In this document: positions 4,727 through 61,769 of the stretch, one piece after another | How positions within the stretch are numbered: the first letter of the stretch is position 1 | Layout: the number at the start of each line of letters is the position of its first letter | Assembly: GCA_949752735.1 (NCBI GenBank) | Contig: OX457051.1 | Location: 1,687,501 to 1,751,500, forward strand | Length of the DNA stretch: 64,000 bases | Direction: 5' to 3' | Source of the DNA: Lumbricus terrestris | Taxonomy: Eukaryota; Annelida; Clitellata; Crassiclitellata; Lumbricidae | Program-made: the position numbers and the translations under genes | Notes under the pieces: model-generated | What the model was told of the DNA's origin: nothing | Databases searched by the model: none | Seen by the model: the letters and a program-made list of their open reading frames with translations, nothing else

Positions 4727-22061
<17,335 letters not shown>

Positions 22062-22721
22062 ACCATTGAATGAGTACTGTATTGAGTATTGACTGCGATC
22101 TTTAATGTCACCATCTTCAGATAGAATGCATCCACGGTGTTAAGCTTCGCAGGAGTTGAGATACTGCTGAAGAAGTTCATTCAATTATTATGATAGGACT
22201 AGCTAGTTCTAAACGAATAGGTTTAGAATAGGACTAGGCTGTAAATGAAAACTTAAATCATGTGTGACATTGTATAACTATGTACGTAACTCACGTGTCA
22301 ACCGTATTCCTGCCATCATTGACTTTCAGTTTTTTTTTGTAATAGGGGATTTCGGCCTAATATTTTTACAGGACCATGGATTTTCGACAGCATGGTTTTG
22401 TAACTTTCTCTTTGCTGTGAGTTCTCGTTAACGCAATCTTTCTCTTCTTCTCGAATCGATACTCCGGAGTCCAGAGTAATAGGTTTACAAGTCGGGAGTT
22501 CCCACCGTGGCTGATTTGGTTGATTGCTCGGCATGTAGCGTAACGCGTAGAGTATTGTTTATGAACGTTGAGCAAGTCCTACGCTCACAATTGCTGAGTG
22601 CATGCCATCGATGTTCCCTCAGGGTCGTGTGTGCTTCTGAAGCACGCTAGGATGGCAATGGCAATCACATTGGTAGGCCTATTGTGTATTCAGTGACTAT
22701 TCTCTGTATTGTGAAGCCTGA

Positions 22722-23002
22722 TGATGATGATGATGGTGCTCTGCCCGAAGGCAGGTTAATTGGCTTTACGCCCCAGGGGATGAGATGAGTGAGGTGGTCT
22801 CCCGTTGCCTTTCCCACAGACAATGATGAGTAAGCAACATGCCCAAGGTCGCTCCGCAGGAGCTTGCGCCCATGCGTCCCACACGTGCTAGCCCGAGATA
22901 TCTAAATCCCTGAATGTCAACTCCCAGCCCGGGGCTTGAACCGCAGTCCGTTGCAACCAACAGACGAATGCCGCTCTCGCTTACCGGTGTAGCTAACTAG
23001 CT
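22722..23002 (-). mobile_element. tRNA-derived SINE (family 2)
   Basis: Same head, body, CTGCC hairpin and (GAT)n tail as the copy at 19585. In the duplicate region the matching copy is split by a 463-bp insertion (57253-57715). This copy is therefore the empty site. Confidence 0.88.
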
Positions 23003-23036
23003 CAGTTGTGTAGCCTAAGGGTGTTTTATTCATATC

Positions 23037-24340: not shown

Positions 24341-24606
24341 ATATGGAAATAAAACAAATAATAATTTAACGCCGAATTATGAATAATTTGTAATAATAAA
24401 CTTAATTTGTAAAACAAAACGGGGTGGAGGCGAAAGATGGAAATTTCCCGGTCAACAGCGGTTACAGCCACAGTTTCGCACCTATTCACTTCAAATCTGT
24501 CAGCAAGACAGACGACCTCTCAGCCCCCTGTTCGCCCCGCCCTTGGGGCCGGGTGGGGCTAAAGACCAGTATGTTGAAGTCCATAATCAGTCAGGTTTAT
24601 TTTTAG

Positions 24607-24891
24607 AGGAAACAAATCGATTTGGATGTCTGCACTGCAGTGGATAATGAAGATGCCATCGGGGAAATTAATGCTGAAGATCAACCAGACATTGTTTACA
24701 CAACAATCATTCCACATGATAAAACGCAGGATGACATCCATGCTAATTCTCAGACCCATTCAACGACAGTGGGTGTGCTGACTTTGATATCCATAAATCT
24801 TCAGATTAAATGCATTATGGTGTTCCGCTTCGCACGAGTTAGGATATTGTTTCAGGTTTCTTCAATCCATTGTATATTAATTTATTTGTGA
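24607..24891 (+). pseudogene. Second, divergent receptor tail exon (copy A)
   Basis: After a TTTTTAG acceptor the frame from about 24613 reads KQIDLDVCTAVDNEDAIGE and later DIVYTTIIPHDKTQDD and IHANSQTH. It is a paralogue of the tail at 21913. The first tyrosine is Cys and the third is His; only IVYTTI (ITIM-like) survives. It is one base out of phase with a phase-1 splice. Copy B stops right after QTH; here the stop is lost (TAA to TCA) and the frame runs on to 24891. Probably a relic of another tandem receptor. Confidence 0.65.
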
Positions 24892-25103
24892 GGCGCGGTG
24901 GTGTAGTGGGTATGTTCATCGCCTTGCAGCCGAATGGTTGCAGCTTCGATTCCACCTCAAGCCGCAGCGTAGGGACCTTTGGCAAGTCCTTCACTCGCAA
25001 TTGCAGAGCGCTTCGGCGTGAAACTCTGATGCAGTGTCCGCGGTGTAGTTTTTGAGCGTCTCTGAGTAGAAAGTTTGAAGGGGCGCTATAACAAGTACAC
25101 ATA
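24890..25103 (+). mobile_element. tRNA-derived SINE (family 1)
   Basis: Box A region GCGGTGGTGTAGTGGG, box B-like GCTTCGATTCC, the GCGCTTCGGCGTGAAACTC body and the CTCTGAGTAG ... GGGGCGCTATAACAAG tail. The duplicate is at 59838-60053. Confidence 0.9.
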
Positions 25104-25111
25104 CAAAAACA

Positions 25112-25480
25112 TTTAGACTCAGAGACTCGTTATATGAGTTTGCCTAGACATAGAGTACATTTTGCCCGAGACTGTTACTACCGGCTGCGTCAACTTCGCA
25201 CAATTATTGCCCTTTCGCTGAATCGAATGCAGTCACTTCCCTAGTCCATTCTTTTTTTCCTTTTCATCTTGACCAGTGCTCGTCACTCTACTCTGGCCTC
25301 CCGTCCAATCGAATAGTGTGACTAAACCGAGTCTTACGCTCTGCAGCACGTCTAATTGCTTAAAATGCTAATTTTAGTCACGTCTCCCAGTTATACGCTG
25401 GATACATTACACTGGCTTCCCACCGGGCATTGAGGATCGCTGCTCTGGTTCGACAATGTCAGCCTTGAATTGTCCCACAC
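25112..25480 (+). mobile_element. L2-like LINE relic
   Basis: The plus strand reads CYYRLRQLRTIIALSLNR and later LDTLHWLP, the region after the catalytic palm in L2-like LINEs. It is interrupted by frameshifts. The duplicate is at 60059-60430. Confidence 0.6.
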
Positions 25481-25644
25481 TGCATGCATGAGCTTTGTTG
25501 CTCCCACAGGTATCCAAGTCTACCGCCCCTTCCGTTCTGGACAGAAGGGATTGCTCTTGGTTCCATTCGCATGAACTGCAACCATTCAGAATGGAGCCAT
25601 TTCTGTGATGTTTCGTTAAATTTATGCAGTTTAAAACCTTTTTT

Positions 25645-25765
25645 ACAATAGGTCTATGAATCATGTGAGCTTTGAATCTGAATATCTGGTTCGAGTTGTG
25701 GCTCACAACGATCATCCCTACCAGAGCAGCAGCGACACGTGGATCATACTGACGCCACGAGCACG
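25645..25765 (+). pseudogene. Possible fibronectin-III half-module (copy A)
   Basis: After ACAATAG the frame reads NHVSFESEYLVRVVAHND and SSDTWIILTPR. EYLVRVVAHN matches the F-strand signature of FN3 domains (Y-x-V-R-V-x-A-x-N), and the following S...ILTP resembles the G strand. No donor follows and no first half was found, so it is a relic or chance match. The duplicate at 60603-60717 keeps the frame. Confidence 0.35.
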
Positions 25766-26999
25766 TTCGAATTTTATCAATAAAGGGGAAGGGGTTATTT
25801 ATTATTATTATTTATTTATTTATTATTATTTTTTCCTCAACCAAAACAACAAACAAACATAATACAATTATGGCATTGAATAATACATTAACATAATTTG
25901 GTGAAGAAGGGGAGACCCAGAAGGGATGTAAAATCCCGCTAATAGGGCCACCCATAATTCATGTAAAATATAAAAGAAAAAACATGACAGAACATTCAAT
26001 TGTAGGAATAAAAAAAATGATGAGGAAGAGAGAAAAACAAATTAAGCAATCGACATTTCTGTATATAACGAGAAAAACAACTCTTAACTAATGACTTAAC
26101 TAAAGACTTAACTAAGGGCTTGGCGAAACCACTGAGCAGAAACCTTAACCATTACATATCAGGAAGTGTTTTAAGTAGATAAAGGCGAAGTTTATGCTTA
26201 ATAGTCTAAGCGGTACAAGTCAGATTCTGGTTAGTAAACTGCACTTTTTGAACACGGGTTGCCGCTTGGCACAGTTGTAGTTGGGACCCAAGGGAACATT
26301 TTAAGAAGGGGAGGCATCCGAAATTTCCCTTACAATTCAAGATGGCGGCTTTTTTCAAAATGGCGGCCTGAGGCTAAGAAATTCTTATAAATCATCGTAT
26401 CATCTCGTGTTTGGTGTCGTTTCTATATATTTCTGACTCGAATAACATGAATCTACGATCAAAATCAACTTTAGACATCAAAATTAAGCCCAAAAAAGTA
26501 CTTTTACATTAAAAAACAGCAAAATTGCTATTAAAATTCATCAAATAGTTCTTCATTTCCATTGCTTGTTTTCCAATTTTCTTGTGGCATATTCCTTCAT
26601 AGTTCTGGATGTTTTCTCACAGTTTTGATTATTATGCATCGGGGACCAGTGGGAATTATCCTTAGAAATCAAAATGGCGGCTTCTTAAAAATGGCGTCCT
26701 GCGTCAAAGACATCTATACAAATTGTCAAGACATGTCACGTCTAGTGTCGCTTACATATATGATTTTTGACTCGAAGAACACCAATCTAAGGTCAAAATC
26801 ATCACAGGACATCAATATATGATCAATGTTTTGCAAAACAGCAAAACTGTTTTTATAAAAACAAATACTTCTTTTGCTTTCGTTGCTTTTCTTCGGTTTT
26901 TTGTGGCATCCTTCCTCATGTATCTAGGTGGTTCTTGCGATTATATTTATAATTATTATAATTTATAATTATACTAAATAGCTAAAACCCAATAATCGT

Positions 27000-28398
27000 A
27001 GTTTTTCATATTTCCGCCCGGAAAGGGAAAACGCTCGCATAGCAGTAATGACCAACAGTACAACGATTATGACGATGAAGACGACGATTGTGATGATGAC
27101 GACAACGACGAAGACGTCATTAACCGATCCGTCTCCCTTGGCAACAGCGTCCGGACCTGCGCCGTTACGGATGAGTGATTCGTTGATGACGAGATAGAGG
27201 AAGGTTCGCGCCTGACGAACAGTTGGACCATGATCACGGACCTTGACCTACACGAACATCGTCAGATTGGTCGATTTAGATATGCTGGTGGTGGTGGTAG
27301 TTTTGATGGAGATGGCACCTGTTCTCTGGTCGATCTGAAGGAGGGTGCGGTGGTGGTGATGGTAAGCGGCGTCTACAGGATGCTGAGAGATGTAATAGGA
27401 GAGACGGGTATTGTCTTCTGCATCAGAATCTCTTGCAATGACTATCATCAGTCGACCATGATGATCCCCTACCAGCGTTCAGAGCTGGTTTTCCAGGACA
27501 TGTAGCTGAACTCAGTGAACCGTGGAATATCGTCGTCAATGTCTTTGATGGTCAACAAAGGCAGTGCTGATGACATCAGAGATGGCGTCCCAAGGATAAA
27601 GGCCAAGATGGATACGTTGACCTTGGGCGTGACCTCACGACCGAGACTGGCCTTGGCCGTGACGATGCCTTCCGAAAGGTGGACATCGAAGATTTCCTTC
27701 AACTGTTCGTCAATTGCGTATCGAATGACTACGCTCAGTCCTTCGTCACGGTCCAGTGCCTCTACAAGAGCCATAATGTTGACCAGTGTAGATGTTCTCA
27801 ATGGCCACGTAGATATCACTCGTAAAAGACGGAGGATTATCGTTTTCGTCAACAACCGTGACAGTCAGTTCCACCATGGTTGACTTCATTGGATATCCAA
27901 GATCACTACAGGCAGTGGTCAGACGGACGGTGCTCACATGTCGCTTCACGGTCCACTGACCTCAATGCTGCTGTAGTCCCTGTGTACTGATCGTAGTAGA
28001 TTGGGTCCAACAGCGAGACCCCGTCACCGTCCAGTGAACACGTCGTCGGTCCGTTTAACCCGTCATCCGGATCGTTGACTCTGAGATGAGTGACGAAGGT
28101 CCATTGAAATCATACTCAGACACCTCGGGCATTCCAGACTCTGTCAGGACCGTCACAATAGGTCCATTGCCATTGACGTCGGTGAAGTGTACGATGACGC
28201 TTGTTTCGTCAGTCAATCGGACGTCATGACTTTAGTCAATGGCAAGCGCCTGCAATTTATGGAGAGCTGCAGATTCAAAGTCCAGCCTCCTCAGCAGCTC
28301 AATTGCCCCCGTTTCGTTATTTATGCGGGAGAGATCGGTCGTCCTTGAGGGCCTTTTGCTGGCGTCGAGGTAGAACCGAACGAATCAACCACCAGCAT
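27000..28398 (-). pseudogene. Protocadherin fragment (cadherin repeats + TM), broken
   Basis: Minus-strand reading from the spacer into the left arm shows, in order and across frameshifts: SRINNETGAIELLRRLDFES, HFTDVNGNGPIVTVLTESG, VTVVDENDNPPSFTSDIYVA, TIKDIDDDIPRFTEF, VIARDSDAEDN, DQRTGAISI, VKVRDHGPTVRQART and LVINESLIRNG, followed by a Val/Ile-rich helix (about 27030-27120). DxNDNxP-type linkers, DRDEG and LD.E motifs define cadherin repeats. A TAG stop precedes VKVRDHG in both arms. Intron-less, truncated at both ends, not functional. Confidence 0.85.
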
Positions 28399-28419
28399 GT
28401 CTAAATCGACCAATCTGAC

Positions 28420-28680
28420 GATGTTCGTGTAGGTCAAGGTCCGTGATCATGGTCCAACTGTTCGTCAGGCGCGAACCTTCCTCTATCTCGTCATCAACGA
28501 ATCACTCATCCGTAACGGCGCAGGTCCGGACGCTGTTGCCAAGGGAGACGGATCGGTTAATGACGTCTTCGTCGTTGTCGTCATCATCACAATCGTCGTC
28601 TTCATCGTCATAATCGTTGTACTGTTGATCACTACTGCTGTGCGAGCGTTTTCCCTTTCCGGGCGGAAATATGAAAAACT
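28420..28680 (+). pseudogene. Inverted duplicate of protocadherin TM region
   Basis: The plus strand reads VKVRDHGPTVRQART, LVINESLIRNGAGPD, then DGSVND and a hydrophobic run of over 20 Val/Ile/Leu residues ending in VRAFSLSGRK. It is the mirror copy of the left-arm sequence and shares its upstream TAG. Confidence 0.8.
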
Positions 28681-29465
28681 ACGATTATTGGGTTTTAGCT
28701 ATTTAGTATAATTATAAATTATAATAATTATAAATATAATCGCAAGAACCACCTAGATACATGAGGAAGGATGCCACAAAAAACCGAAGAAAAGCAACGA
28801 AAGCAAAAGAAGTATTTGTTTTTATAAAAACAGTTTTGCTGTTTTGCAAAACATTGATCATATATTGATGTCCTGTGATGATTTTGACCTTAGATTGGTG
28901 TTCTTCGAGTCAAAAATCATATATGTAAGCGACACTAGACGTGACATGTCTTGACAATTTGTATAGATGTCTTTGACGCAGGACGCCATTTTTAAGAAGC
29001 CGCCATTTTGATTTCTAAGGATAATTCCCACTGGTTCCGATTCATAATAATCAAAACTGTGAGAAAACATCCAGTGCTATGAAGGAATATGCCACAAGAA
29101 AATTGGAAAACAAGCAATGGAAATGAAGAACTATTTGATGAATTTTAATAGCAATTTTGCTGTTTTTTAATGTAAAAGGACTTTTTTGGGCTCAATTTTG
29201 ATGTCTAAAGTTGATTTTGACCTTAGATTCATGTTATTCGAGTCAGAAATATATAGAAACGACACCAAACACGAGATGATACGATGATTTATAAGAATTT
29301 ATTAGCCTCAGGCCGCCATTTTGAAAAAAGCCGCCATCTTGAATTGTAAGGGAAATTTCGGATGCCTCCCCTTCTTAAAATGTTCCCTTGGGTCCCAACT
29401 ACAACTGTGCCAAGCGGCAACCCGTGTTCAAAAAGTGCAGTTTACTTTTGTGTACCGCTTAGACT

Positions 29466-31995
29466 ATAAATAATCTTGTGTTAGGTAGGGAATGAAGATG
29501 TGTAGGGAGAGAGTTCCAACATTGGGAGCCAGTATATTGTATAGAGAATCGACGAGTATTATTATGTGCGTAGGGAAGGTCATAAACAGTTAATTTTCTA
29601 GTTGAATAAGAGTGGCGATCAGAGGAAAGGTTAAAGAAATCATTAAATACAAGTGGTAATAGGCCATGGTTATAACGGTACATAAATTCTCCTATTTGCA
29701 AGTGCCTAATTTGATCGATCTTTAATAATCCAAATTCCTTGAAATACAGAGCGGTGTGGGCTCGGCGAGGAATATTAGCTATAAAACGGATTGCATATTT
29801 TTGAAGGGTGACTAGTCTGATAAAATTAGATTTGTAAGTAGACGTCCAAATTAAATTACAGTAGGTTAAATAAGGATAAATAAGAGAATAGTATAGCATA
29901 GACCGGATAGAGACAGGAATCAGTTTAGATGAGCGAAATAGCACACCAACAGTCTTAGCAATTTTGCTAGAGATATTATTGATGTGTTCCTTCCAATTTA
30001 GATGCTGGTCAATGTATACGCCCCAAAATTTTGTGGATGTTACTTGGGTGATAGGAGTCCCTTCAATAAGTAGAATAGGAAGTTCATTGGGATATTTTTT
30101 CTTATGGGATCTGAAGAGGATGTAGTTGGTTTTATCCAAATTTAGAGTAAGTTTATTTGATCGAAACCAATCAACGACTCGGTGAAGCTCAGAATTAACA
30201 GTGTCGAATAGGGTATCAATAGATTTATCAGAATGAAATAAGTTAGAATCATCAGCAAATAGTACAAAATACATAGAAGGCGATACATTAGGTAAATCAT
30301 TAATATAGATTAAAAATAAAAGAGGTCCAAGATTAGATCCTTGAGGGACACCGTGAGAAATGAGTTGTAGATCAGAAGTGCAATTGTTAACAGAAACCAG
30401 TTGAAAACGATTTTCAAGATAGCTAACAAACCATTGTAATTGTGTCCCTCTAATTCCATAGTTATAAAAATTTTTGATCAAAATATGATGATTTACAGAA
30501 TCAAAGGTTTTAGCTACATCAAGGAAGATACCAAGGGAGTATTCGTTATTTTCAATTGCATTAGAGATTTTGTCTTGTATGCTTAGAAGGGGCATGTAGG
30601 TAGAATGACCCTGTTGGAATCCATGCTGAGACTGAAATAGTACTTTCTCTTTTGATAAAAAACTATCTAAACGTGCATACATTAATTTTTCAAATATTTT
30701 GGCAAAGAATGGGAGTACAGAAATCGGTCTGTAGTTAGAAACATTGTCCCTCGGGCCCTTTTTATGAATGGGTATGACCTTGGCAGTTTTCAATGCAGAG
30801 GGGAATACTCCAGTGGTAAATGAGCAGTTGACAATCTCTGATAGCGGAATTGCAATTTTAGGCAATGTTAATAGGGCTATGGCAGGGTCAATTCCATCGA
30901 CTCCTTTACTATGCGTAGTGCGAATGGTATGCGCAAGGTTCATTATTTCACAAGGTGTAGAAGGGATTAATGCTATAGAATGTGGAAGGGGTTGGGATAA
31001 GTAGGATAAAAAAGAGTTAGTTGCAGCAGGTATTTTATTAACAAGAGATTGTGCAATGCCTGTGAAGAAATTATTGAATTTAGTTGCTATAGTCTGAGGG
31101 TCAGTAATTTGTTCACCATTTACATTCAATGCAGTAATTACAGTTTCTCTGTTAGTATCTCTATCCAGTATACTCCTCAGAAGACCCCAGGTTTTTTTAA
31201 GGTTATTACTATGAATTAAAAATTCGGATGCATAATAATCTTTTTCGGCTTGCAATTTAACATTCTTAAATTTGTTTCTGTATAGGATGAATTTCCTTTT
31301 GTTGGCCTCATTTGGATTTTTTATGAATTTTTTATATAGTTTCGCTTTCTTATTACTAGATTTTACCAGTGCCCGAGTCATCCAGGGCTTTTTTGGGATA
31401 GAGTTGCGAGCATAAGTCCTAGTGGAAATTGGAAAAGAATCATCGTAAAGCTTCTTATAATTGCTAAGAAATAGGTCATAGGCCTTATCAGTGTCTAGTT
31501 CCGTACAAGCTTCACGGATATCAGACCAGTCCGTAGAGTCTAAGGATTGCAAAAAATTGGCTTTATGGTCATCAGATACTAGGTTAAATGTCAGTGTTTG
31601 AGGCTTGTTAGGAGGTTTAATAGGACTAAAATCAAACCATGCTATGATTGGTAAATGATCAGAGATGTCTTCGATGAGAATAGAAGAATAAATAAGTTTG
31701 GTCCAAATGTTAGTGAATATGTTATCTAGTAATGTAGATGTATGGTCAGTGATCCTGGTAGGTCTGGTTATGAGAGGCAATAGATGATGGGCGGTTAGGC
31801 AATGGTAGAGATCAGCAGTGGCTTTGTGGCTATTAATTTTCAAGAGATCCATGTTAAAATCACCTAAAATTACTATGTCTTTTGATTTTTTTAGCGTATG
31901 ATCTAAAATGTTGTTAATTTCTTCAGAGAAATCTTCTAGTTTAAGCCCAGGTGGCCGATATATAACCCCATCTGTGGTTGCCCCAGTTTTATGTG
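29466..31995 (-). CDS. LINE ORF2: endonuclease (partial) + reverse transcriptase
   Basis: About 840 residues on the minus strand without a stop. Endonuclease motifs: GVIYRPPG, DIVILGDFNMD and EDISDHLPI (the SDH box). Reverse-transcriptase motifs: NYRPISVLPFFAKIFEKL, QHGFQQGHST, SLGIFLDVAKTFDSVNH (first catalytic Asp), SHGVPQGSNLGPLLFLIYIN and LFADDSNLF (catalytic FADD), then LTLNLDKTNYILFRS, KFWGVYIDQHLNWKEHI and WNSLPTHLHSLPNTRLF. This is a Jockey/CR1-type ORF2. The frame ends early only because a foldback element interrupts it at 29465; the last residues lie at 26150-26202. The N-terminal residues of the open frame (31998-32035) come from host flank. Confidence 0.92.
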
Positions 31996-32844
31996 CAATC
32001 GTCATTCGGCCGCTCATTCCTTCCCTCAGGATCAAGTCTCCGCCTGTGCCCGCAACACACTCAGGGGTTTAAGTGGCTCGCAAAAAGTGTTTGCATGATC
32101 ATTATGCTAACCTAAGTCTTCACGTGAGTGCGCATGCTAAGTAACGTTCATATAGTAAAATATATTATTTAAGATATTTCCGCTCACAAGAAGCCGCCCA
32201 AACGAAAGACCCCAACTCCAAGTTCACAATAATAGCGTGGTCAGCGAAGTTCCTGACTTTGTAGGCCTTTTAAACTTCTCTGAGTCATCCAAGACAGTTA
32301 CTTCTAATCAGAATGTACGTTCTCCAAAGGCAAAAGGAAGCAAGTCCAGTTTTGGGTTAAAATGACATTTTGGCATAATTTTGGTTCATGAAGCAAGTCC
32401 AACACAATCATCTATATAAATAGTTATTATCTCACGTAGTTTTGGCGGAAAAGCAGAGGCAGAAAGAAGCATGTCCACGTAGTTCTGGAAAATACCAAGG
32501 CAAAAGGAAGCATGTACAATTGTCCATCAACCAATTGTACTCGTAAATTTGGGTCACGTGATCGCAAATTTCCACTATATTATCGTTTTATTTAGGCTAC
32601 ATTAGGATAATTCTAAACATGGACAATACGGGTGCTCAAAATTTCTTTGCCTACCTGATAATACTAAGGAGATATCATGACAATACTGATTATAATTGTG
32701 CACATAGCTTTAAAGCCGACCGAAGGATGATGCCTGAGATGTTTTTCGCATTTTTCTCAGAAACTGAAATCTGTGACTTGCTTCCTTTTGCCTTGGCAGG
32801 GCAGTATAGCGCTGTTGTATAATTGTATAAATTTTAATATTTTG

Positions 32845-51300: not shown

Positions 51301-54300
51301 CCACGAAGCCCGATGGTCCGATTCCTGATCCCTGCACAACACTGGCGTTGATCTTTGCAGCGGGTGACAGCCGTCCGGAAAATCGCGTCACATGGCTCCT
51401 GTCCTCAAGGAAACGGACGATCCAGTTGTAGATCTCGTCTGGTAAATCAAGAGCACAGAGCTTGGAGGCCAGTGTCGCATGGCGGACGGTGTCAAAAGCC
51501 TTGCTGAAGTCAAGGGCATTGCTGAAGTCAAGGGCATTGCCAATCTAGACAAAGAAAAAAATCATAGCCAGCAACGCGGGCCCCTGGAAGCGCGGGCCCC
51601 AAGGCGGCTGCCTCGCTCGCCTTGCCCTAGGGCCAGGCCTGATCGTTGCAGCGTTTTATTACGAATTTGTTCAATCCAACTTCTATTTCATACCTATAAA
51701 AACCCTCATCCAGCTTCTATTTCTCGCACGTTATTTTCGTCAATCCAGCTTCTATTTCAGACATAGAAATACCTTCATCCAGCTCTTATTCCTCATGCTT
51801 TATTTTCGTCATTCGAGCTTCTATTTCACCTGTAAAAGACCATCATCCGGATTCCATTTCTCTTTCGTTTTTTCAATAATCCAGCCTCCATTCCACCTGT
51901 AAAAACAAACTTTCATCCAGCTTCCATTTCTCAATGCGTCACAATCGGATTGACGAAAATAAGGCTTGAGAAATAGAAGCTGGATGAAGGTATTTATATG
52001 TCCTGAAAATAGAAGCTGGATTGACGGAAATAAAGCTTGAGAAATGGAAGCTGGATGAGAGTATTTTTATATAGGAAATAGAAGCTGGATTGACGAGAAT
52101 AACGAGAGAGAAATACTTACTAGAGATGTTGAAACAGGCAAGAAGAAAGAATTGAAGGATTGAATATTTTAGAAATAAGAGCATGATTGTATGCGTGTAA
52201 AGCTTTGGTATTTGGAAATTTTGTGAGTAAGTAAGTAAGTAAGCAGGTAAGGAATTGTAGAATTTGCGCTGAGATGTTGAAAGATGTAAGTATTTAGAAC
52301 TGAAAGAGTGAAGAAATGAGAAACAAGTGCAGGATTGTGTATGTGTAAAGCTGTTGAAGTGCTGAAATTTTGTGATTGAGTAAGTAAGCAGGTCAGGAAT
52401 TGTAGCATTTGTGCGGTTGAGATGTTGAAATGTGTAAGTATTTAGAACTGAAGGTGTGAAGAAATTAGAAACAAGTGGAGGACTGTGCATGTGTAAAGCT
52501 GTTGAAGTTCTGAAATTTTGTGAGTAAGTAAGTAAGTATGTCAGGAATTGTTGAATTTGTGCGGTTGAGATGTTGAAAGATGCAAGTTAAACTTGAAGAG
52601 TGTCTTTCATCTATGTATTCCTGGTTTTGTTTCAATGGTTTGGCCATAAACCCTGACAAGTCTGAGGCAATTTTATTTGGGTCACGCCAGCGCCTGCGCT
52701 CTTTCCCTCCACTTTCTGATATCGACCTTGCGGGCACTGCTGTTCATCTGTCAGATACTGTCAAAACACTTGCAGTAACCCTAGACAATAAGCTCACATT
52801 TCGACCTCACATAACTAGCATTTGTAAATCTTGTTTCTATCACATTCGGGCAATACGTCACATCAGGTCGGCCCTGACTATGGATATGTCTCAAACCATT
52901 GCCTGTTCTCTTGTCTCATCCCGCCTTGTTTATGCTAACGCCGTTTTTGTCGGTCTCTCAGTCACTGAGCTCAACAGGTTGCAACACATCCAAAACTCCT
53001 TAGCGCGTGTTGTGCTGCGCGTCCCAATACAAACTAGTTCCTCAGTACTACTCCAACAACTGCATTGGCTTCCTGTTCAGTACAGGATAAAATTCAAATT
53101 GGCATGTCTGACCTTCAAATCTCTCAGTACCAACGCACCTTCCTACCTTCAGTCACTACTAACTCCTTACATTCCTCCTCGTTGCTTGCGTTCATCGGGC
53201 ACAAGTCTTTTATCTGTAACCTCCAAATGCACAACGCATTTGGAGGTTACAACTGCTCCTGCAATTCTGGATACAAGCTCCACAACGACCTCCATAAATG
53301 TTATGGTAAAATTATTTCAATATTAACTAAGCTTAAGCAAAAATTAAACAGTGATAATAAATTATGCCGCTAGTTTAATTTTGCAATGTGTCATCAAATA
53401 TTATCAAGGTGATGGTGAGTGATTAGTAATGATGGTGAGGGAACCGATAATGAGCGGAATTCAGGAGGGTGCAGAAAATTGCAGAATTGGCTTCCTGAAG
53501 AGACGCTATACACATTCTCATAACGAACGAATGAATCAGAGGCATTTTCGCAAGCCTGGAAGCAGACGGGGACTGGTTTTATAGCAGTAGCTAAGAGCGA
53601 AGTCCGTGAGGGATCCTAAATACCTCGGGGCAAAACAAAAAACAACGAATGAATTGATTGATAAGTCTGCAGTTTTCAAATCGTCGGCCCCACAGTCGTT
53701 TTGCCAGAAACGGATCTGTTATTATTGTGATTTAAATCAATGGGGCATATGGGTCTAGTGCTTTAGGCCTACGCTTAAAAGATTTAGAAGAGCCCTCTTG
53801 ATTCGTGAACTAAGACCTTTCTCTCTCTAACATTTTAGATATTGACGAATGCAGCTCTGGATCTCATGGCTGTGGTCAAGTGTGCGTAAATACGATCGGG
53901 AACTACTCATGTGATTGTAATTCTGGCTTTGTTTTAGTCGATCGATTCAATTGCCACGGTAAATGCTTCTTCTTCTTGATTCTAATTGCCACTTCATTTC
54001 GTTAGCAGCTTCTCATTTTCCTTATCAATTTACCACGGTCACGTTCGCCTTAACTTTATGCCAAAAATCAGTTAGGCCTACTGCTCAAAAAAGATCCATT
54101 CTTTGAATCGTCTGGTCAATTTTGTAGGCCTATTTTCATCCTACTTGATTCGCATGTGAAAATGGTTTCGTGTTGCTTAATTGTGATAAGCAACTTGTGC
54201 TAAAGTAACTCATTTTACGAATCATGGCTGACTCAAGTAGGCCTAACACGTTATTTTAAGCCTGACTTCCGATCCTGCTCAGTTGGATCCAATCCAGGAC

Positions 54301-54545
54301 TCTTATAATATGCTACACGTAGATTATAGTCTGGGACCGGTATAGAGCCTACTTGGGCTCTTGTTGCTATATAAAGAGACCGTGTGATATCAAAGAAGTT
54401 CATGTCACCCTCCTCCTTTCTACGGGCTTGGGACTGGCTCTACCAGAGTGCGATTAGATGAATGATCCTGCTCAGTTGGAATGAGGAATGATCTGCCTCC
54501 TGAATTACGATCCTATTCAGTCCTTCCATCATCATTACTAATCAC

Positions 54546-54605
<60 letters not shown>

Positions 54606-56532
54606 GACAATTTATATGGCGCCGTAACGCGGCCATACCGCTACAAGGGCGCCACACACCATCGGCTCCTCTATTCATCACACCTCGGGCTTATCATTCG
54701 AAACTTAAGACTTTCCACAAACTCCTACCGTGTCTCATCTGATCCTCCACCATCCAATTCACGGCTCAAACGACACCCGCCTTAGCAGCTGTTCCGCCCC
54801 CTGATCCTATGGTAACTCCACCCGGACCACCACGGACTACTCTCACGTACAACCCTTGTAACTCAACGCAGCGCTCGTAAATAAGCTGGTGCCCGCGCTT
54901 TGGCTTTTGAGCTGCGCTTTAGATATTTCGAGCTTACGATTACGATTACGAAGTTATTTTGGCTCTCTCTAATTATCGCGCAAATATTGGCAGCATAAAT
55001 TCATAAAGATTAATTCTGTCAAGAGAGTCAAACTGCATTCTCCTCTGACAGATGATGGTCCATCACTTGGCCAAATTGAATGTCATCGTCGAATTCTAAA
55101 GGAATTACGATAGTAAAGGGGAATGGTCCACAAGTAGCTTAGTTTTATGACAATCTCCAGTTGCGGGAGTTTTACGTTTTACCGAAATGTTTATCGTATG
55201 CACGCAATAATGACTTGCAAGAAATCCATTTGGATGTCACCAGCCTTTGTTTTCGATAATAATAATTATTACTTCCTCGATATGGCATAAAGACCGAAAA
55301 ATTGCTCTGTAATTAATGTCTGTTGTTAGAACGTGTTTCATATTCTCTAATACCGTAGACCCAATAATTGTTTTCGTTTACAATCATATTACTTATGTAG
55401 ATCCCCCCCATTATATTTAGACTGAAGTTATAATTGGGCAACAGTCAAGTCGACTGTACAAATAAACTACTCCTATTAGATTTGAGACTCTTGTGTTTTA
55501 CATCGTTATTAGATCTGTAGTCTGAGTCATTTAATATTCTGCTCTCTATCAACAGAAATAACTAAATTGAACTGATAATTTTATTGCTGTTTTACTTTCA
55601 GTCGATTGTTCTTCACTAAAATTGGGATACGACATCGGCGTTGGTATACAATCCTTCATTAATATTATCCTTATCGCAGCAGTCGTCATGCTTTTTATTT
55701 TGTTGAAACGGAAACGTACCGCAGAAGCAAAAGGTACGCAAGGTCTAATTAGTAATTAATGCCTAATAAAATTAGGCCTACATTTTGGTGGCCGGTCAAT
55801 GGCAAACATTCTGACGTGTCGAATCTGATTGCACTTGATATAGGTATAAAATATTATTAATTAAGTCTAATGAAACTACATCTCTGGAAAACTGTCAGAA
55901 TTGAAATGTCATCCACAGTAACTGTCGTAATTATAGCCTAACTCTGCTGCTGTGCTTAAGAGAGGAGTTGTTTTACTTTATGTTCACTGCGATAATATAT
56001 AATGTGATTTTAACCTTACAGGCCTGTAGGCCTAATTTAAAGTCAATGCTTGATAGTCTAAACAATGGCATAGTAAATGTTTGTAAACAACGTCGTACAG
56101 TTAAGCCATTTGTAGATTCTTATTAAGATATGCTATCTGCTAGAAACCTAAAAATAAGATCTCACCAGTAGGCTGAGCTACACAGATATCATAAAGCTCG
56201 CATGAATATGTAATAGTAGGACCTACAATCCCTAGGCCTAGGCCCTACTTGTAAGTCTACCAAACATACGCAGTCAATGTAACGAAAAGCCACGAACTTT
56301 TTGCAGAAATTTAGTAGCCTAGATTACTGTCTGTAGTGTCTGAACTGTTAACATTAATAATTAATTGTTACATTTATTATTAGAAGACGCAATCGGATTG
56401 GATGTCTACACTGTGCTGGATAGGAAGGCACCACCGGCGAGAGCAGACGACCAACCAGAGAGTCTATACACAGCTATTGTACTACAGGATAAAACTCATG
56501 AGGGCATCTATGCTAACACTGAATCAAATTAA
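42233..56532 (+). CDS. Receptor gene 2: WSC + EGF modules + intact TM + tyrosine tail (multi-exon)
   Basis: Exons in order: WSC 42233-42387 and 42990-43137, MEGF-like EGF 47063-47218, EGF-CA variant 48679-48837, EGF-CA 53839-53958, transmembrane 55602-55733, tail 56384-56532. Because all EGF exons are phase 1-1, the exon at 48679 can splice straight to 53839, skipping the truncated exon at 53239. The predicted protein is a type I receptor with a short stalk: four EGF exons shorter than gene 1, but with the membrane helix intact. The first coding exon with a signal peptide is not recognised. Introns hold a GC-rich relic, a minisatellite, a composite hAT element and LINE pieces. The order is conserved with gene 1, so it is a tandem paralogue. 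Confidence 0.8.
42540..42905. other. Intron of gene 2, GC-richer insertion
   Basis: 42600-42860 is GC-richer than its surroundings and open on the minus strand (88 codons, with [11 protein letters not shown] and [16 protein letters not shown]). It is absent from gene 1 and may be a retroelement relic, but no domain was identified. Confidence 0.35.
42990..43137 (+). CDS. Gene 2 exon: C-terminal half of WSC domain
   Basis: Acceptor TTTGCAG, donor TCAG|GTTAGT, 148 nt. It reads [25 protein letters not shown] and [17 protein letters not shown], matching exon 4727-4874 closely. Confidence 0.92.
43387..43419. repeat. Perfect 15-bp hairpin (3-nt loop)
   Basis: Arms AGAGATGGTTTCCCG and its exact inverse around CAA. 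It sits at the start of a block (43385-46930) absent from gene 1, so it could mark an insertion boundary. Confidence 0.9.
44045..44130 (-). mobile_element. LINE 3'-tail fragment
   Basis: The plus strand reads ATATATTGCGCC, then GGGGCTACTCAGAGGCGCTCCCA, the inverse of the L2-like LINE tail. Very short. Confidence 0.5.
44472..44990 (+). CDS. Hypothetical ORF with seven 13-residue repeats
   Basis: The 172-codon frame begins [15 protein letters not shown] and has, from about residue 55, seven units of 13 residues with consensus [13 protein letters not shown], then a basic end. The 39-bp DNA unit is a multiple of three, so all frames stay open across it, and a reading frame alone proves little. 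It lies within an intron of gene 2 in a block absent from gene 1. It may be part of a mobile element. No family is recognised. Confidence 0.35.
   Translation: MSKTEKDLFIKLHCCRWDRHTVVARRRTRPSVLSHHSLSSNVSLFSATARPSDEARQKRQMAGNREAGFQKRQMAGNEEAGLQKMQKAGNDEADLQKMQKAGNEEAGLQKMQKAGNEDAGFQKMQQAGNEEAGLQKSRTAGNEEAGLRKEKRESQFSPHLPPSRLKMSSFFV
44634..44920. repeat. 39-bp minisatellite, about 7 units
   Basis: The unit core is AAGAKGCAAAWGGCGGGAAA followed by CGAAGAGGCTGGCCTCCAA. Variation between units is mostly single substitutions. Confidence 0.93.
45390..46770 (-). pseudogene. GC-rich coding relic, possibly retroelement ORF1
   Basis: About 1.4 kb is markedly GC-richer than the rest of the window. Minus-strand frames overlap: 46159-46767 (basic N-terminus), 45792-46295 ([19 protein letters not shown] then RIVH, resembling half of a C2H2 finger) and 45562-46035 ([13 protein letters not shown] and [15 protein letters not shown], ending basic). 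Frames shift between them and a TAG precedes MDALLADL. Composition and the finger-like motif suggest a retrotransposon gag/ORF1 relic. The family is not identified. Confidence 0.4.
47063..47218 (+). CDS. Gene 2 exon: MEGF/SR-F-type EGF module
   Basis: Acceptor TTTTTTAG, donor TTG|GTAAGA, phase 1-1. It reads [33 protein letters not shown] and ends RSCSLG. It is three codons shorter than the gene 1 exon. Confidence 0.88.
47219..48678. other. Intron of gene 2
   Basis: No exon. 48345-48420 aligns with the gene 1 intron at 8930-9010. 47570-47650 repeats GGACATTNNCCCC-like words imperfectly. Confidence 0.5.
48679..48837 (+). CDS. Gene 2 exon: EGF-CA variant module
   Basis: Acceptor TTTCTAG, donor ACAG|GTAAAC, 159 nt, phase 1-1. 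It reads [34 protein letters not shown] and ends NGTC. It matches 9293-9451 in length and in the extra NCHNC cysteines. Confidence 0.9.
49246..49350. repeat. Short tandem repeat, 14-16 bp units
   Basis: Six to seven variants of CAATACCGCGCACA, the last two as ACCGCGCACGATCGTT. GC-rich. The hAT element at 49359 inserted at its right edge. Confidence 0.85.
49359..51641. mobile_element. 2.28-kb hAT element with 8-bp TSD, carrying a LINE
   Basis: The ends are CAGGCCCGGCCCTAGGG and CCCTAGGGCCAGGCCTG, inverted, flanked by a perfect ATCGTTGC duplication (49351-49358 and 51642-51649). Subterminal GGGCCC blocks are also inverted. No hAT transposase is visible; the cargo is the 50398-51545 LINE fragment and AT-rich filler. 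The insertion splits a tandem-repeat / TU-like region. Confidence 0.92.
50398..51545 (-). mobile_element. LINE reverse-transcriptase fragment
   Basis: Minus-strand frame, starting upstream of 51391 with KAFDTVRHA, then [29 protein letters not shown] (catalytic YADD), [52 protein letters not shown] and a C-terminal RNFIPRAL-like end. It lacks the N-terminal endonuclease. The QGSGIGP and AWWGF style differs from the L2-like copies, so it is a separate clade not assigned here. Confidence 0.88.
51650..52115. mobile_element. TU-like foldback core
   Basis: 51660-51940 holds repeated CATCCAGCTTCTATTTC in plus orientation and 51950-52115 holds GAAATAGAAGCTGGATGA in the inverse, so the two halves fold back. 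It is the same inner repeat family as 33579-34131 and 61770-61900. Outer 15-bp domains are not evident, unless the CAATACCGCGCACA tandem on the far side of the hAT insertion is one. Confidence 0.75.
52123..52570. repeat. 148-bp tandem repeat, 3 units
   Basis: GAGATGTTGAAA anchors are at 52123, 52271, 52419 and 52567. Each unit contains a (GTAA)n block and TGTGTAAAGCTGTTGAAGT. Confidence 0.92.
52580..53220 (+). mobile_element. LINE ORF2 fragment, plus strand
   Basis: An open frame of about 213 codons: [75 protein letters not shown] and [14 protein letters not shown]. This is the region downstream of the YADD box. It ends abruptly where it is fused to the truncated EGF exon at 53239. Both the 5' and 3' ends of the LINE are missing. 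Confidence 0.88.
53239..53305 (+). pseudogene. Gene 2: 5'-truncated EGF exon
   Basis: Only [20 protein letters not shown] remains of the module, with its donor G|GTAAAA. The acceptor, the DIDEC start and three cysteines are replaced by LINE sequence. A perfect 15-bp hairpin spans the junction (53216-53250). It should be skipped in splicing. Confidence 0.88.
53839..53958 (+). CDS. Gene 2 exon: membrane-proximal EGF-CA module
   Basis: Acceptor ACATTTTAG, donor CACG|GTAAAT, 120 nt, phase 1-1. It reads [24 protein letters not shown] and [10 protein letters not shown], nearly identical to 19452-19571. Confidence 0.93.
54544..54605. repeat. (AAT)n microsatellite
   Basis: About 20 trinucleotide units, followed by GCGCCGTAACGCGGCC. 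It is absent from the matching site of copy A near 20400. Confidence 0.95.
55602..55733 (+). CDS. Gene 2 exon: intact transmembrane exon
   Basis: Acceptor CTTTCAG, donor AAAG|GTACGC, 132 nt, phase 1-1. It reads [15 protein letters not shown], then a helix of about 21 Ile/Leu/Val/Ala residues and [15 protein letters not shown] is a typical stop-transfer signal, so the protein is type I. Confidence 0.92.
56384..56532 (+). CDS. Gene 2 exon: cytoplasmic tail with three tyrosine motifs
   Basis: Acceptor TATTAG, phase 1, stop TAA 56530-56532. [14 protein letters not shown] and EGIYANTES as in gene 1. Two YxxL/I motifs are 16 residues apart, wider than the usual 6-12 of an ITAM, so ITIM-like plus a Grb2-type YxN site is the better description. 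Confidence 0.9.
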
Positions 56533-57195
56533 ACCATTGAATGAGTACTGTATTGAGTATTGACTGCGATCTTTAATGTCACCATCTTCAGATAGAATGC
56601 ATCCACGGTGTTAAGCTTCGCAGGAGTTGAGATACTGCTGAAGAAGTTCATTCAATTATTATGATAGGACTAGCTAGTTCTAAACGAATAGGTTTAGAAT
56701 AGGACTAGGCTGTAAATGAAAACTTAAATCATGTGTGACATTGTATAACTATGTACGTAACTCACGTGTCAACAGTATTCCTGCCATCATTGACTTTCAG
56801 TTTTTTTTTGTAATAGGGGGTTTCGGCCTAATATTTTTACATCCCCATGGATTTTCGACAGCTTGGCTTTGTGTTTTTCTCTTTGCTGTGAGTTCTCGTT
56901 AACGCAATCTTTCTCTTCTTCTCGAATCAATGCTCCAGAGTCCAGAGTAATAGGTTTACAGGTCGGGAGTTCCCACCGTGGCCGATTTGGTTGATTGCTC
57001 AGTATGTAGCGTAACGCGTAGAGTATTGTTTATGAACGTTGAGCGAGTCCTACATGTACGCCCACAATTGCTGAGTGATGCCATCGATGTTCTCTCAGGG
57101 TCGTATGTGCTACTGAAGCACGCTAGGATGGCAATGGCAATCACATTGGTAGGCCTATTGTGTATTCAGTGACTATTCTCTGTATTGTGAAACCT

Positions 57196-57940
57196 GATGA
57201 TGATGATGATGGTGCTCTGCCCGAAGGCAGGTTAATTGGCTTTACGCCCCAGCAGGGCTGGTATGTACAGGGCACGGCATAAGGTAATCACATATAGTGC
57301 CTAAGCGCGACTTAGTAATTCCGGATATAACCATTGGAATGTATCCATATGCACGAGAAAAAACAGCAACGAGAATAACTAATCTACACATTCCTTGAAC
57401 CCGACGATGCATGACGCTTGCTCTTCCCCCAATTCAATAGATGTTGGCAGCGTGGGGTAAACAGAATCAGACCTAGAGCGGCCCGTAGGGAAATATCGGA
57501 CGGCTGCCTATTGTTCGCGCTGTCCAGCGAAAGTCGGCCGTCTATTGTTCACAATGGGAGTAGCCGGCTTAAAACTACCTCGAAGTTGGAATAACGTTAT
57601 ACATAGTTTAATTCGCTAATCTCAAGCCGTGCATACGGAAATAACCCAGTATTCCTGTATAGGCCAGATTTAAGCCAAATATACGAGTTATGCGCTCATG
57701 TACATACGGGCCCAGGGGATGAGATGAGTGAGGTGGTCTCCCGTTGCCTTTCCCACAGACAATGATGAGTAAGCAACATGCCCAAGGTCGCTCCGCAGGA
57801 GCTTGCGCCCATGCGTCCCACACGTGCTAGCCCGAGATATCTAAATCCCTGAATGTCAACTCCCAGCCCGGGGCTTGAACCGCAGTCCGTTGCAACCTAC
57901 AGACGAATGCCGCTCTCGCTTACCGGTGTAGCTAACTAGG
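57196..57940 (-). mobile_element. tRNA-derived SINE (family 2), split
   Basis: The parts 57196-57252 and 57716-57940 together equal the intact copy at 22722-23002. The tail hairpin and (GAT)n are left of the insertion and the tRNA-like head is right. Confidence 0.9.
57253..57715. mobile_element. 463-bp insertion with imperfect inverted ends
   Basis: Present only in copy B. It starts CAGGGCTGGTATGTACA and ends with the partial inverse (TGTACATACGGGCCCAG). CCCAG is found at both sides and may be a short target duplication. No gene inside. Young, because the copy A site is empty. Confidence 0.8.
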
Positions 57941-57976
57941 TCAGTTGTGTAGCCTAAGGGTGTTTTATTCATATCT

Positions 57977-59290
57977 CAATCAATCAATCAATCAATATAC
58001 TTTATTGATCATCATGTTTTATGTATACATACAGTATAGCACAAACAAACAGTAGTTGAAAATGTCACATGCATAGATGTCAAAGGGGCCCAAAGGAACG
58101 TAAGGTTCCGCTAACAGGGTTGCCCTAATTACACGAAGAATCAATCTATCATCAACTTTCTGCATAACAGTATACATGTATGTGTACAGACAGTTGTATA
58201 TGATCAAGGTGTAAAACAATCTCTTCCATTTTACAAGTTTATCGAAATGCATTGAATGTAAGTTATGCAACTTAAACAAGTGGGGAAAACAAAATAACAA
58301 ACAGACTAAACTAAACTAAACTAAGCAAAAAAAAAACTAAAAACACAACAGTTAAGAGAATACAACAGTGCACGTGTAGGTAGTGCACTTAAAAACAAAA
58401 CCATTTTGTGCAATTATGCAATAGTATCCAAAAGAAATAATTTCAATTTGTATTTGAATTGGTACATTGTAGTTATACAAGTAAGATCAATAGGCAGAGA
58501 ATTCCACATCGACGGTCCACATATTCTAATACTATGCAGTCCAGTAGTGGTACGAACACTTCTTTGGTGGTATCTATTTACAGATCGTGTATAATGTCCA
58601 TGAACGTCTGAATTTTTACAAACCAGTGGTTGAAGCTTGTTATGATTAGATTTCTGTGAAGTTTATACATAAATACTCCAATTTGTAGTTTATTAATGTA
58701 GTCAAAAGGCAGAATTTTCAAATCACTGAACAATGGTTGAGTGTGGGCTCTAAAAGGTGCCTTGCATATAATTCGAACAGCTCGCTTTTGCAGGGTTGTC
58801 AAAATAGTTAAACGAGTGTGGTATGTGGAAGCCCACGTAATATTACAATATGACATATAAGGGTATAGCCTATCAAAGAGTAATATAAATTCACAAGTAT
58901 ATCTCGCGGCATAAGGTGTCGAACACGAGAGATTATGCCTATATTTTTTGATATCTTTTTGGATATAGAGTTTATATGCTCCCTCCATGTTAATTGTTCA
59001 TCAATGTGAACACCCAAAAATTTGGTTGATGATACCCTACAAATACATTGTTCATCTATTTTAATTGATATATTGCAATTTGTTGCTGTTCTAAGTTTAA
59101 TTTTAGACCAGAACAAAATAAAATTTGTCTTCTCAAGGTTCAGCGATAATTTGTTGGCTTTGAACCAATCGCCTACAAGTTTTAATTCGGCATTAATTTT
59201 TTTAACCAAGACTTCAATAACAGCTGAGTATAACGTTTTGTTACATGCTATATGCAATTTAGAAAATCTGTTTGCTGTATAGGCTACATA
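57977..59290 (-). mobile_element. CR1-like LINE, 3' part (copy B)
   Basis: Duplicate of 23037-24340. A 5-bp insertion (TA to TAGCCTA, 58866-58872) breaks the frame between LVNLYYSLI and YPYMSYCNI. The rest is nearly identical. Confidence 0.88.
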
Positions 59291-59553
59291 TGGAAATAAA
59301 ACAAATAATAATTTAACGCCGAATTATGAATAATTTGTAATAATAAACTTAATTTGTAAAACAAAACGGGGTGGAGGCGAAAGATGGAAATTTCCCGGTC
59401 AACAGCGGTTACAGCCACAGTTTCGCACCTATTCACTTCAAATCTGTCAGCAAGACAGACGACCTCTCAGCCCCCTGTTCGCCCCGCCCTTGGGGCCGGG
59501 TGGGGCTAAAGACCAGTATGTTGAAGTCCATAATCAGTCAGGTTTATTTTTAG

Positions 59554-59709
59554 AGGAAACAAATCGATTTGGATGTCTGCACTGCACTGGATAATGAAGA
59601 TGCCATCGGGGAAATTAATGCTGAAGATCAACCAGACATTGTTTACACAACAATCATTCCACATGATAAAACGCAGGATGACATCCATGCTAATTCTCAG
59701 ACCCATTAA
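59554..59709 (+). pseudogene. Second, divergent receptor tail exon (copy B)
   Basis: KQIDLDVCTALDNEDAIGE, DIVYTTIIPHDKTQDD, IHANSQTH and a TAA stop at 59707-59709. Tyrosines 1 and 3 are replaced by Cys and His. It keeps the ancestral stop that copy A lost. Confidence 0.68.
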
Positions 59710-59837
59710 ACGACAGTGGGTGTGCTGACTTTGATATCCACACATCTTCAGATTAAATGCATATATGGTGTTCCGCTTCGCACGAGTTAGGATATTGTTT
59801 CAGGTTTCTTCAATCCATTATATATTAATTTATTTGT

Positions 59838-60053
59838 GAGGCGCGGTGGTGTAGTGGGTATGTTCATCGCCTTGCAGCCGAATGGTTGCAGCTTCGATTC
59901 TACCTCAAGCCGCAGCGTAGGGACCTTTGGCAAGTCCTTCACTCGCAATTGCAGAGCGCTTCGGCGTGAAACTCTGATGCAGTGTCCGCGCTGTAGTTTT
60001 TGAGCGTCTCTGAGTAGAAAGCTTGAAGGGGCGCTATAACAAGTACACATACA
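59838..60053 (+). mobile_element. tRNA-derived SINE (family 1)
   Basis: Duplicate of 24890-25103 with a few substitutions. Confidence 0.9.
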
Positions 60054-60058
60054 AAAAC

Positions 60059-60430
60059 ATTTAGACTCAGAGACTCGTTATATGAGTTTGCCTAGACATA
60101 GAGTACATTTTGCCCGAGACTGTTACTACCGGCTGCGTCAACTTCGCACAATTATTGCCCTTTCGCTGAATCGAATGCATTCACTTCCCTAGTCCATTCT
60201 TTTTTTCCTTTTCATCTTGACCAGTGCTCGTCACTCTACTCTGGCCTCCCGTCCAATCGAATAGTGTGACTAAACCGAGTCTTACGCTCTGCAGCACGTC
60301 TAATTGCTTAAAATGCTAATTTTAGTCACGTCTCCCAGTTATACGCTGGACACGTTACACTGGCTTCCCACCGGGCAGCGCATTGAGGATCGCTGCTCTG
60401 GTTCGACAATGTCAGCCTTGAATTGTCCCA
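60059..60430 (+). mobile_element. L2-like LINE relic (copy B)
   Basis: Duplicate of 25112-25480. It keeps HWLPTGQRIEDRC where copy A has lost four bases. Confidence 0.6.
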
Positions 60431-60602
60431 CACTGCATGCATGAGCTTTGTTGCTCCCACAGGCATCCATGTCTACCGCCCCTTCCGTTCTGGACAGAAG
60501 GGATTGCTCTTGGTTCCATTCGCATGAACTGCAACCATTCAGAATGGAGCCATTTCTGTGATGTTTCGTTAAATTTATGCAGTTTAAATTTTTTTTTACA
60601 AT

Positions 60603-60717
60603 AGGTCTATGAATCATGTGAGCTTTGAATCTGAATATCTGGTTCGAGTTGTGGCTCACAACGATCATCTCTACCAGAGTAGCAGCGACACGTGGATCAT
60701 ACTGACGCCACGAGCAC
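60603..60717 (+). pseudogene. Possible fibronectin-III half-module (copy B)
   Basis: NHVSFESEYLVRVVAHND then LYQSSSDTWIILTPR. The frame is unchanged from copy A (Pro to Leu substitution). Confidence 0.35.
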
Positions 60718-61302
60718 GTTCGTATTTTATCAATAAAGGGGAAGGGTTTGCGATCGTCATTCGGCCGCTCATTCCTTCCCTCCGCCTGTGCCCGCAACAC
60801 ACTCAGGGGTTTAAGTGGCTCGCAAAAAGTGTTTGCATGATCATTATGCTAACCTAAGTCATCATGTGAGTGCGCAGGCTAAGTAACGTTCATATAGTAA
60901 AATATATTATTTAAGATAATTATTATTTCCGCTCACACGAACCCACCCAAACAAAAGACCCCAACTCCATGTTCACAATAATAGCGTGGTCAGCGAAGTT
61001 CCGGACTTTGTAGGCCTTTTAAACTTCTCTGAGTCATCCAAGACAGTTAGGCTACTTCTAATCAGAATGTACGTTCTCCAAAGGCAAAAGGAAGCAAGTC
61101 CAGTTTTGGGTTAAAATGACATTTTGGCCTAATTTTGGTTCATGAAGCAAGTCCAACACAATCATCTATAATTATAAATAGTTATTATCTCACGTAGTTC
61201 TGCCGGAAAAGCAGAGGCAGAAAGAAGCATGTCCACGTAGTTCTGGAAAATAACAAGGCAAAAGGAAGCATGTCCAATTGTCCATCAACCAATAATTGTA
61301 AT

Positions 61303-61700
61303 TGTAATTGTAATTGTAATTGAGTATTTATATAGCGCCGCTCACAGATTCAGTAGCGCTCCCGACCCTAGTTAGCACTGTCGCTGACGAATAGTATGGT
61401 CTTCAGGCGTTTCCTAAACAGAGGGAGAGAAAGACTGAGAAGCTCAAGGCGTAGTTTGTGTGGAAGACGGTTCCAGCATGAGGGGCCAACATAGGCAAAG
61501 CTTCTGGATTGGGCAGTAGCACCACGCATGCGAGGAACAACAAGGAGGTCATTAGCTGCTGAACGAAGGGCAGAGCGACCAGGGAGAGAGGAGACATGGA
61601 TGCAGAAAGCACGGAGGTAGGAGGGAGCTACCCCAAGAAGAGAATTGCGCATAAGAGTCAGAATCTTAAACTCTATGCGTTGCGATACAGGAAGCCAATG
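61303..61700 (-). mobile_element. L2-like LINE 3' end, present only in copy B
   Basis: The minus strand reads RNSLLGVAPSYLRAF, LPGRSALRSAANDLLVVPR, GATAQSRSFAYVGPSCWN and RKRLKTILF. The tail is GCGCCGCTCACAGATTCAGT plus (AATTGT)n at 61293-61322. It interrupts sequence that is continuous at 32520-32545. Same subfamily as 943-1970. Confidence 0.88.
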
Positions 61701-61769
61701 TACAATAATATTGTAGGCCTACTCGTAAATTCGGGTCACGTGATCGCAAATTTAATTAAGAGCTATTTT

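Follow-up and report, generated by a model that had tools for sequence, protein, structure and literature searches.

Excision of the Tc1 transposon of C. elegans leaves the scar TACATGTA. Among the PHIS elements, ISL2EU elements usually begin with GG, and the target-site duplications are AT for ISL2EU, TWA for PIF/Harbinger, ANT for Pangu, CWG for NuwaI, TNA or CTNAG for NuwaII and none for Spy, according to the passages of PMC4482050 that treat ends and targets. Here, we describe short blocks that stand between two TA dinucleotides in the genome of Lumbricus terrestris and take three forms, TAGGCCTA (TA-GGCC-TA), TAGGCTA and TAGCCTA. They were characterized in a 64,000-nucleotide stretch (the window; contig 17, positions 1,687,501-1,751,500 of an assembly of 1,056,305,194 bp in 331 contigs), in a 210-kb sample of the genome made up of 21 10-kb stretches (L121-L141; 274 kb together with the window), and, for the spectrum and empty-site tests, in a widest set of 314 kb; L-numbers denote sampled stretches. 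A literature search found no paper that contains TAGGCCTA as a whole word or describes such insertions. Words resembling TAGGCCTA may also be frequent in certain other aquatic animals.

Short blocks present or absent at TA

The window holds 35 copies of TAGGCCTA where 0.75 are expected under a second-order Markov model, together with 15 copies of TAGGCTA and 20 of TAGCCTA. The 210-kb sample holds 100 copies of TAGGCCTA (1.55 expected), which ranks first among octamers other than simple repeats, and the three forms together reach 314 copies in 314 kb, about one motif per kb. Across the whole genome (1.056 Gb), TAGGCCTA occurs 354,398 times, compared with 18,699 times for ATGGCCAT, a palindrome of the same composition, and 8,418 times for the reversed word ATCCGGAT. 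Some other palindromes are mildly over-represented, as chance or base composition would have it, but against these genome-wide counts such an explanation is hardly credible. The base preceding the TA is G in 0.38 of motif flanks and in 0.19 of the background (274 kb); a reading as telomere junctions (TTAGG/CCTAA) was dropped because this base is most often G.

We took all TA-X-TA sites in which X has 3 or 4 nucleotides and which a paralogous copy spans, and asked whether that copy has the bare TA. An exact empty copy was found at 13 of 60 sites with X = GGC, GCC or GGCC and at 6 of 931 sites with any other X (P = 8e-13, Fisher's exact test). With two satellite monomers of L139 counted once, the motif figure becomes 12 of 59 (P = 9e-12). 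By form, the proportions are 6/21 for GGC/GCC and 7/39 for GGCC, against 3/339 and 3/592 for other X of 3 and 4 nucleotides, respectively; the six non-motif cases are ACC, ACT, CAG, CATG, AGCT and TCAA, one apiece. A stricter first version of the test gave 3/18 and 3/33 for the 3- and 4-nucleotide motif forms, that is 6/51, and 6/836 for other X. TA-targeted, sequence-specific insertion, which the original prediction had proposed from differences between two copies of a duplication, is well supported and occurs genome-wide, and such insertions account for much of the palindrome's abundance, as it had also supposed. A perfect palindrome at high density could suggest a functional site, for instance for a DNA-binding protein, selected or spread through point mutation. 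However, between copies the whole 5-6 bp block at TA comes or goes, the motif sits in retroelements that are broken and in satellite monomers, and the 3-nucleotide forms would count as broken sites, so that a functional site is very improbable.

The two duplication copies in the window, A and B (Table 1), were found by blastn self-comparison and then aligned, giving five blocks with 6,838 columns, 96.2% identity and 46 indels; between its blocks, copy A is interrupted by an insertion with large inverted arms. Fourteen indels measure 4-8 bp, and the motif is borne by four of them (19978/54073, 21401/55878, 23924/58866 and 32299/61048). In three of these four, taking the block out leaves exactly TA, compared with a mean of 0.02 and a maximum of 2 such cases in 20,000 trials of random placement. 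Among the eight indels of 5-6 bp, four are motif, half rather than most, and one is TACATG (22580/57051). Across the filtered all-against-all alignments the motif's share of such indels is lower, 6 of 98, and 3 of the 6 come from one satellite array of L139. All the motif copies quoted in the original prediction sit where it placed them. Three of its five A/B sites, 32299/61048, 23924/58866 and 19978/54073, hold as empty and filled pairs; the remaining two are less clean. At 21401 the corresponding copy B site reads CTACA, with no exact TA, and at 61714 the left flank adjoins a separate ~400-bp insertion in copy B, so that the match is firm for the right flank only.

Where a direction of change can be read, it is mostly that of insertion. 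The flanks were rejoined at TA, and the highest-scoring protein match spanning each site was compared with and without the block. The block at 58866 shifts the frame of a long interspersed nuclear element (LINE) reverse transcriptase (RT), a frame that copy A keeps open (23636-24376, minus strand); once the flanks are joined at TA, the top RT match spanning this site climbs from 121 to 295 bits (94 to 309 with a larger protein set). At 3534 the match rises from 67.0 to 85.5 bits (51.6 to 104 with the larger set), whereas joining changes little at L137 7084 (+4.6 bits) and L142 6900 (+3.8 bits), both neutral. In satellite DNA, TAGGCCTA lies in two neighboring monomers (L139 7842 and 7934); for either one, 14 matches are empty and 1 is filled, and empty monomers were found both in L139 and, on a different contig, in L141. 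Open frames of at least 250 amino acids span 40,760 bp and contain 2 motif copies, compared with ~31 expected from their share of TA dinucleotides. Frame-breaking insertions after the arrival of retroelements would give such a deficit, and conditioning on open frames selects for one too. The window holds many retroelements of the type without long terminal repeats (Pfam RVT_1, Exo_endo_phos).

The blocks also appear to age. One-mismatch neighbors of TAGGCCTA are ~70 in excess in the 274 kb, compared with an excess of 129 intact copies, from which a mean motif age of roughly 6% divergence may be estimated (8d/(1-d) on the ratio of the two excesses). The top excess among the neighbors is that of TAGACCTA/TAGGTCTA (36 against 6.5 expected), which could reflect either transition decay of the motif or an additional scar type. 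Programmed somatic excision was dropped as a reading, since the motif seems to decay by mutation and to have been duplicated with a satellite unit.

Table 1. Coordinates of the duplication, of the sites discussed and of the hAT-like repeat (window positions unless a sampled stretch is named)
Feature	Position	Strand	Remarks
Copy A	19066..32546	+	Aligned blocks within 19066-25793 and at 31994-32546; blastn and alignment
Copy B	53224..61307	+	blastn self-comparison and alignment
TAGCCTA	58866..58872		5-bp insertion in copy B; TA in copy A at 23924
TAGGCTA	61048..61054		In copy B; copy A has TA at 32299
TAGGCCTA	54073..54080		In copy B; copy A has TA at 19978; local identity ~79%
TAGGCCTA	61714..61721		In copy B; copy A has TA at 32538
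TAGGCTA	21401..21407		In copy A; copy B lacks it at 55878
TACATGTA	57051..57058		In copy B; copy A has TA at 22580
TAGGCTA	24333..24339		In both copies (B: 59280)
TAGCCTA	3534..3540		5-bp insertion within the RT of an unrelated LINE, not part of the duplication; a paralogous empty copy exists
Empty TA in LINE RT	16318..16319		Counterpart in L137 (7084) carries TAGGCCTA
hAT-like element, two inverted copies	L125 4345-4677, 8740-9083		333-344 bp; ends CATAGGCGTA

Some further observations concern the same DNA. The insertion that splits copy A has inverted arms at 26233-27292 and 28388-29446 (~1.06 kb, 98-99% identity), and between them lies a segment similar to a cadherin domain (PF00028), scoring just below the curated cut-off. 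One of three related copies has, at 19174-19181, an 8-bp block TAAGCCTA that resembles the motif, and differs from it; the other two, at 18028 and 53334, lack it. A 78-bp palindrome at 33277-33354, 92% complementary, has TAGCCTA and TAGGCTA close to its ends. A protein search with the window LINE RT returned 2,731 homologs, and no relative of it was found among viral contigs. A motif-pair pattern occurs in at least 120 stretches of viral contigs, and a GC-rich stretch of the viral collection (L062; 7,152 bases) holds 8 copies of TAGGCCTA and 5 of the seven-letter forms.

The spectrum between the two TAs

The spectrum of sequences between two TAs is restricted (314 kb; expectations from a third-order Markov model). 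GGCC was counted 150 times against 6.9 expected, GGC and GCC together 164 times against 33 (split 75:89), GG/CC 154 times against 109, and GC 58 times against 55, and eleven six-nucleotide forms tested amount to 1 copy in total. The five-nucleotide class GGCCC/GGGCC numbers 9 in the window (0.3 expected), 3 in the 210-kb sample and 13 in the 314 kb (2.1 expected), the last from 5 loci; as a weak hint, GGC+CC or GG+GCC would put C as the third base of an end. The spectrum can be written as the series GG+CC, GG+C and G+CC. Because the 4-nucleotide form is the most enriched, the 5-nucleotide class is rare and the six-nucleotide forms tested are almost absent, scars of 2+2 and 2+1 bases fit better than 3-nucleotide footprints of the Mos1 type. 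The suggestion of transposon footprints in the original prediction therefore agrees with the spectrum, and its Mos1 analogy fits less well.

The reading we favor, with about an even chance of being right, is that most copies of TAGGCCTA, TAGGCTA and TAGCCTA are scars from the excision of a cut-and-paste element with TA as its target. An element with 5'-GG...CC-3' ends would target TA, duplicate it when inserting, and jump often while at low copy number. Excision with 2-nucleotide staggered cuts would keep at most two bases of each end between the TAs, so that GG+CC would give TAGGCCTA, GG+C would give TAGGCTA and G+CC would give TAGCCTA. We infer all four components of this account: that an element is the origin, that its cuts are staggered by 2 nucleotides, that its ends are GG...CC and that its copies are few. 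In cut-and-paste transposition a scar may remain after a jump while the number of copies stays the same; a long-lived family of low copy number could therefore leave many scars, and their number should not by itself be an objection.

A related possibility, which spells out the reading of the original prediction, is that Tc1/mariner elements are cut 3-4 nucleotides inside GGC(C) ends and that the overhangs anneal with one mismatch. The nearly equal counts of GGC and GCC would agree with this, and PMC7827188 describes footprints from 3-nucleotide overhangs for both Sleeping Beauty and mariner. However, the enrichment peaks at the 4-nucleotide form, and the Tc1-like ends that were read are TA-CAGT or nearly so in three of four loci (L150, L151 and L152; reading of the fourth, L153, found no such ends), so that cuts of this kind are unlikely to be the source.

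Scar types matching Tc1 are raised as well (CATG, 43 against 8.0 expected; CAG/CTG, 62 against 41), the CATG and CAG types have one empty and filled pair each, and TACATGTA at 57051 looks like a Tc1-type 2+2 scar. Since other palindromes are about equally raised, the parallel with Tc1 scars has to be toned down and is weak on its own. In the whole genome, TACCGGTA, the reverse of ATGGCCAT, occurs 27,641 times, compared with 8,418 for ATCCGGAT. It is the 2+2 scar word expected from an element with CC...GG ends, and its excess perhaps represents scars of mariner elements with such ends.

Candidate source elements and evidence against excision

Several observations weigh against excision from a GG...CC element. 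A TA-flanked element with GGC...GCC ends, as the original prediction had envisaged, was found neither in the window, where no TA-flanked inverted repeat starting with the GG or GC forms was convincing, nor in the 274 kb, where no TA-duplicating GG(C)...(G)CC element appeared despite about one motif per kb. The search of the 274 kb for TA-flanked ends starting with GG or GC gave 10 loose inverted-repeat matches, part of which were followed up. The best TA-GGC candidate, a TA-GGCG...CGCC-TA repeat in L125, is hAT-like, with perfect 8-bp duplications (AATGTGCA and AGTATATA) flanking its inverted ends, and is therefore no source of TA scars. To leave this many scars at low copy number, the element would have to be long-lived and to excise often in the germline. 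Between TAs, other palindromes (AGCT, GATC and CCGG) are also raised ~5-fold. In the coding test, 7 of 347 motif sites had coding evidence, of which 2 favor the empty state (by at least 10 bits), 2 are neutral and 3 favor the filled state, namely 24333, its copy 59280 and L138 9307. The match at 24333/59280 drops from 123 to 75.5 bits without the block (199 to 175 with the larger set), and the motif at L138 9307 is part of its reading frame. Among 1,500 random control sites, 109 had coding evidence; 57 favor keeping and 6 favor removal, 3 of these 6 overlapping TATATATA words and 1 lying just 22 bp from 58866. The target duplications of the GG-ended PHIS groups, compared below, count on the same side.

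Other candidates were read individually. Of 437 occurrences of TAGGCC on the two strands, 300 continue with TA, and the remaining cases showed no enriched continuation; the rarer TA-GG boundaries are GGTT (2, the L127 repeat), GGTA (1) and GGGG (1). The L125 family is dispersed in the genome, with 1,691 and 2,852 first-look candidates, 40 of each scored; its starts fall within a few bases, on the same base in 21 of the 39 other copies listed. A TA-GG repeat at L122 8447-9308 and its relatives, with ends TAGGGCTGCCAAC, were rejected on account of the 8-bp duplication AATAATTT in L122; the repeat is a hAT-like non-autonomous element, and a copy at L146 318-1322 lacks a clear duplication. The GG start at L127 6820-7346 was rejected as lying inside a longer inverted repeat starting TA-CAGGG. 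That repeat, TA-flanked and possibly Tc1-like, spans L127 6788-7376 with ~200-bp inverted repeats starting CAGGGTGCGCC. Window 26927-28753 was rejected because it falls within kb-long inverted arms.

Transposases of two types were found. The Tc1-type profile PF13358 gave 147 matches among 150 scored of 2,198 candidates, none tied to GG ends. Harbinger-type transposases (DDE_Tnp_4) gave 59 matches from 85 candidates, including sets that agree in score and frame length. A few such transposases in equal-score sets may be the profile that the excision account needs. The scars, which were examined in place of an element, show neither a TWA nor an AT target duplication: the empty sites are TA, the preceding base being most often G. 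At C9:13.818-13.854 Mb and C18:2.326-2.357 Mb, a 378-amino-acid Tc1-type and a 438-amino-acid Harbinger-type transposase frame lie near each other, with a 913-amino-acid DDE_3 frame in addition on C9; these pairs are perhaps one large composite element or a duplication. Elsewhere in the sample, L138 288-6053 (minus strand) carries a Gypsy-type frame in which the integrase domain lies upstream of the RT, and the frames in L128 and L137 carry a SCAN domain as well.

The insertion data would be the same if GGCC (or GGC/GCC) and a copied TA were written straight into TA with no resident element, for example by abortive strand transfer of a TA-specific transposase or by end-filling with a fixed template. 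With 354,398 copies of TAGGCCTA and yet no TA-duplicating GG...CC element in the sampled DNA, this is a serious rival, though we think it doubtful: the series GG+CC, GG+C and G+CC is what joining two ends should give, and TACATGTA at 57051 suggests scars from more than one type of element. We know of no enzyme that writes such a fixed short insertion into TA. An undescribed process that did so without a transposon, several hundred thousand times, would rank among the main causes of frameshifts and short indels in this genome; tentatively, we put its chance well short of even.

Implications and comparison with described systems

If the blocks are excision scars, they are far more numerous than the visible element copies; the transposon would reshape the genome mainly through what remains, and earlier jumps could be dated from the scars. 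Otherwise, a sequence-specific mutational process of unknown nature is at work. Either way, a recurrent insertion of 5-6 bp, at about one motif per kb, can break reading frames, and it constitutes a class of mutation that is missed by repeat annotation built on element copies.

Like Tc1, the putative element would target TA, duplicate it, and leave two bases of each end between the TAs; Tc1, however, has CA...TG ends, whereas GG...CC ends would be needed here, and no element with such ends was found. With the PHIS elements, the blocks share the GG start of ISL2EU and AT-rich targets, and Harbinger-type transposases are present in this genome, but the GG-ended groups duplicate AT (ISL2EU) or ANT (Pangu) rather than TA, as given in the passages of PMC4482050 on target sites. 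Sleeping Beauty and mariner offer a TA target and a short footprint from joined staggered cuts; in the passages of PMC7827188 on these footprints their overhangs are 3 nucleotides long, whereas the 4-nucleotide form is the most enriched in L. terrestris.

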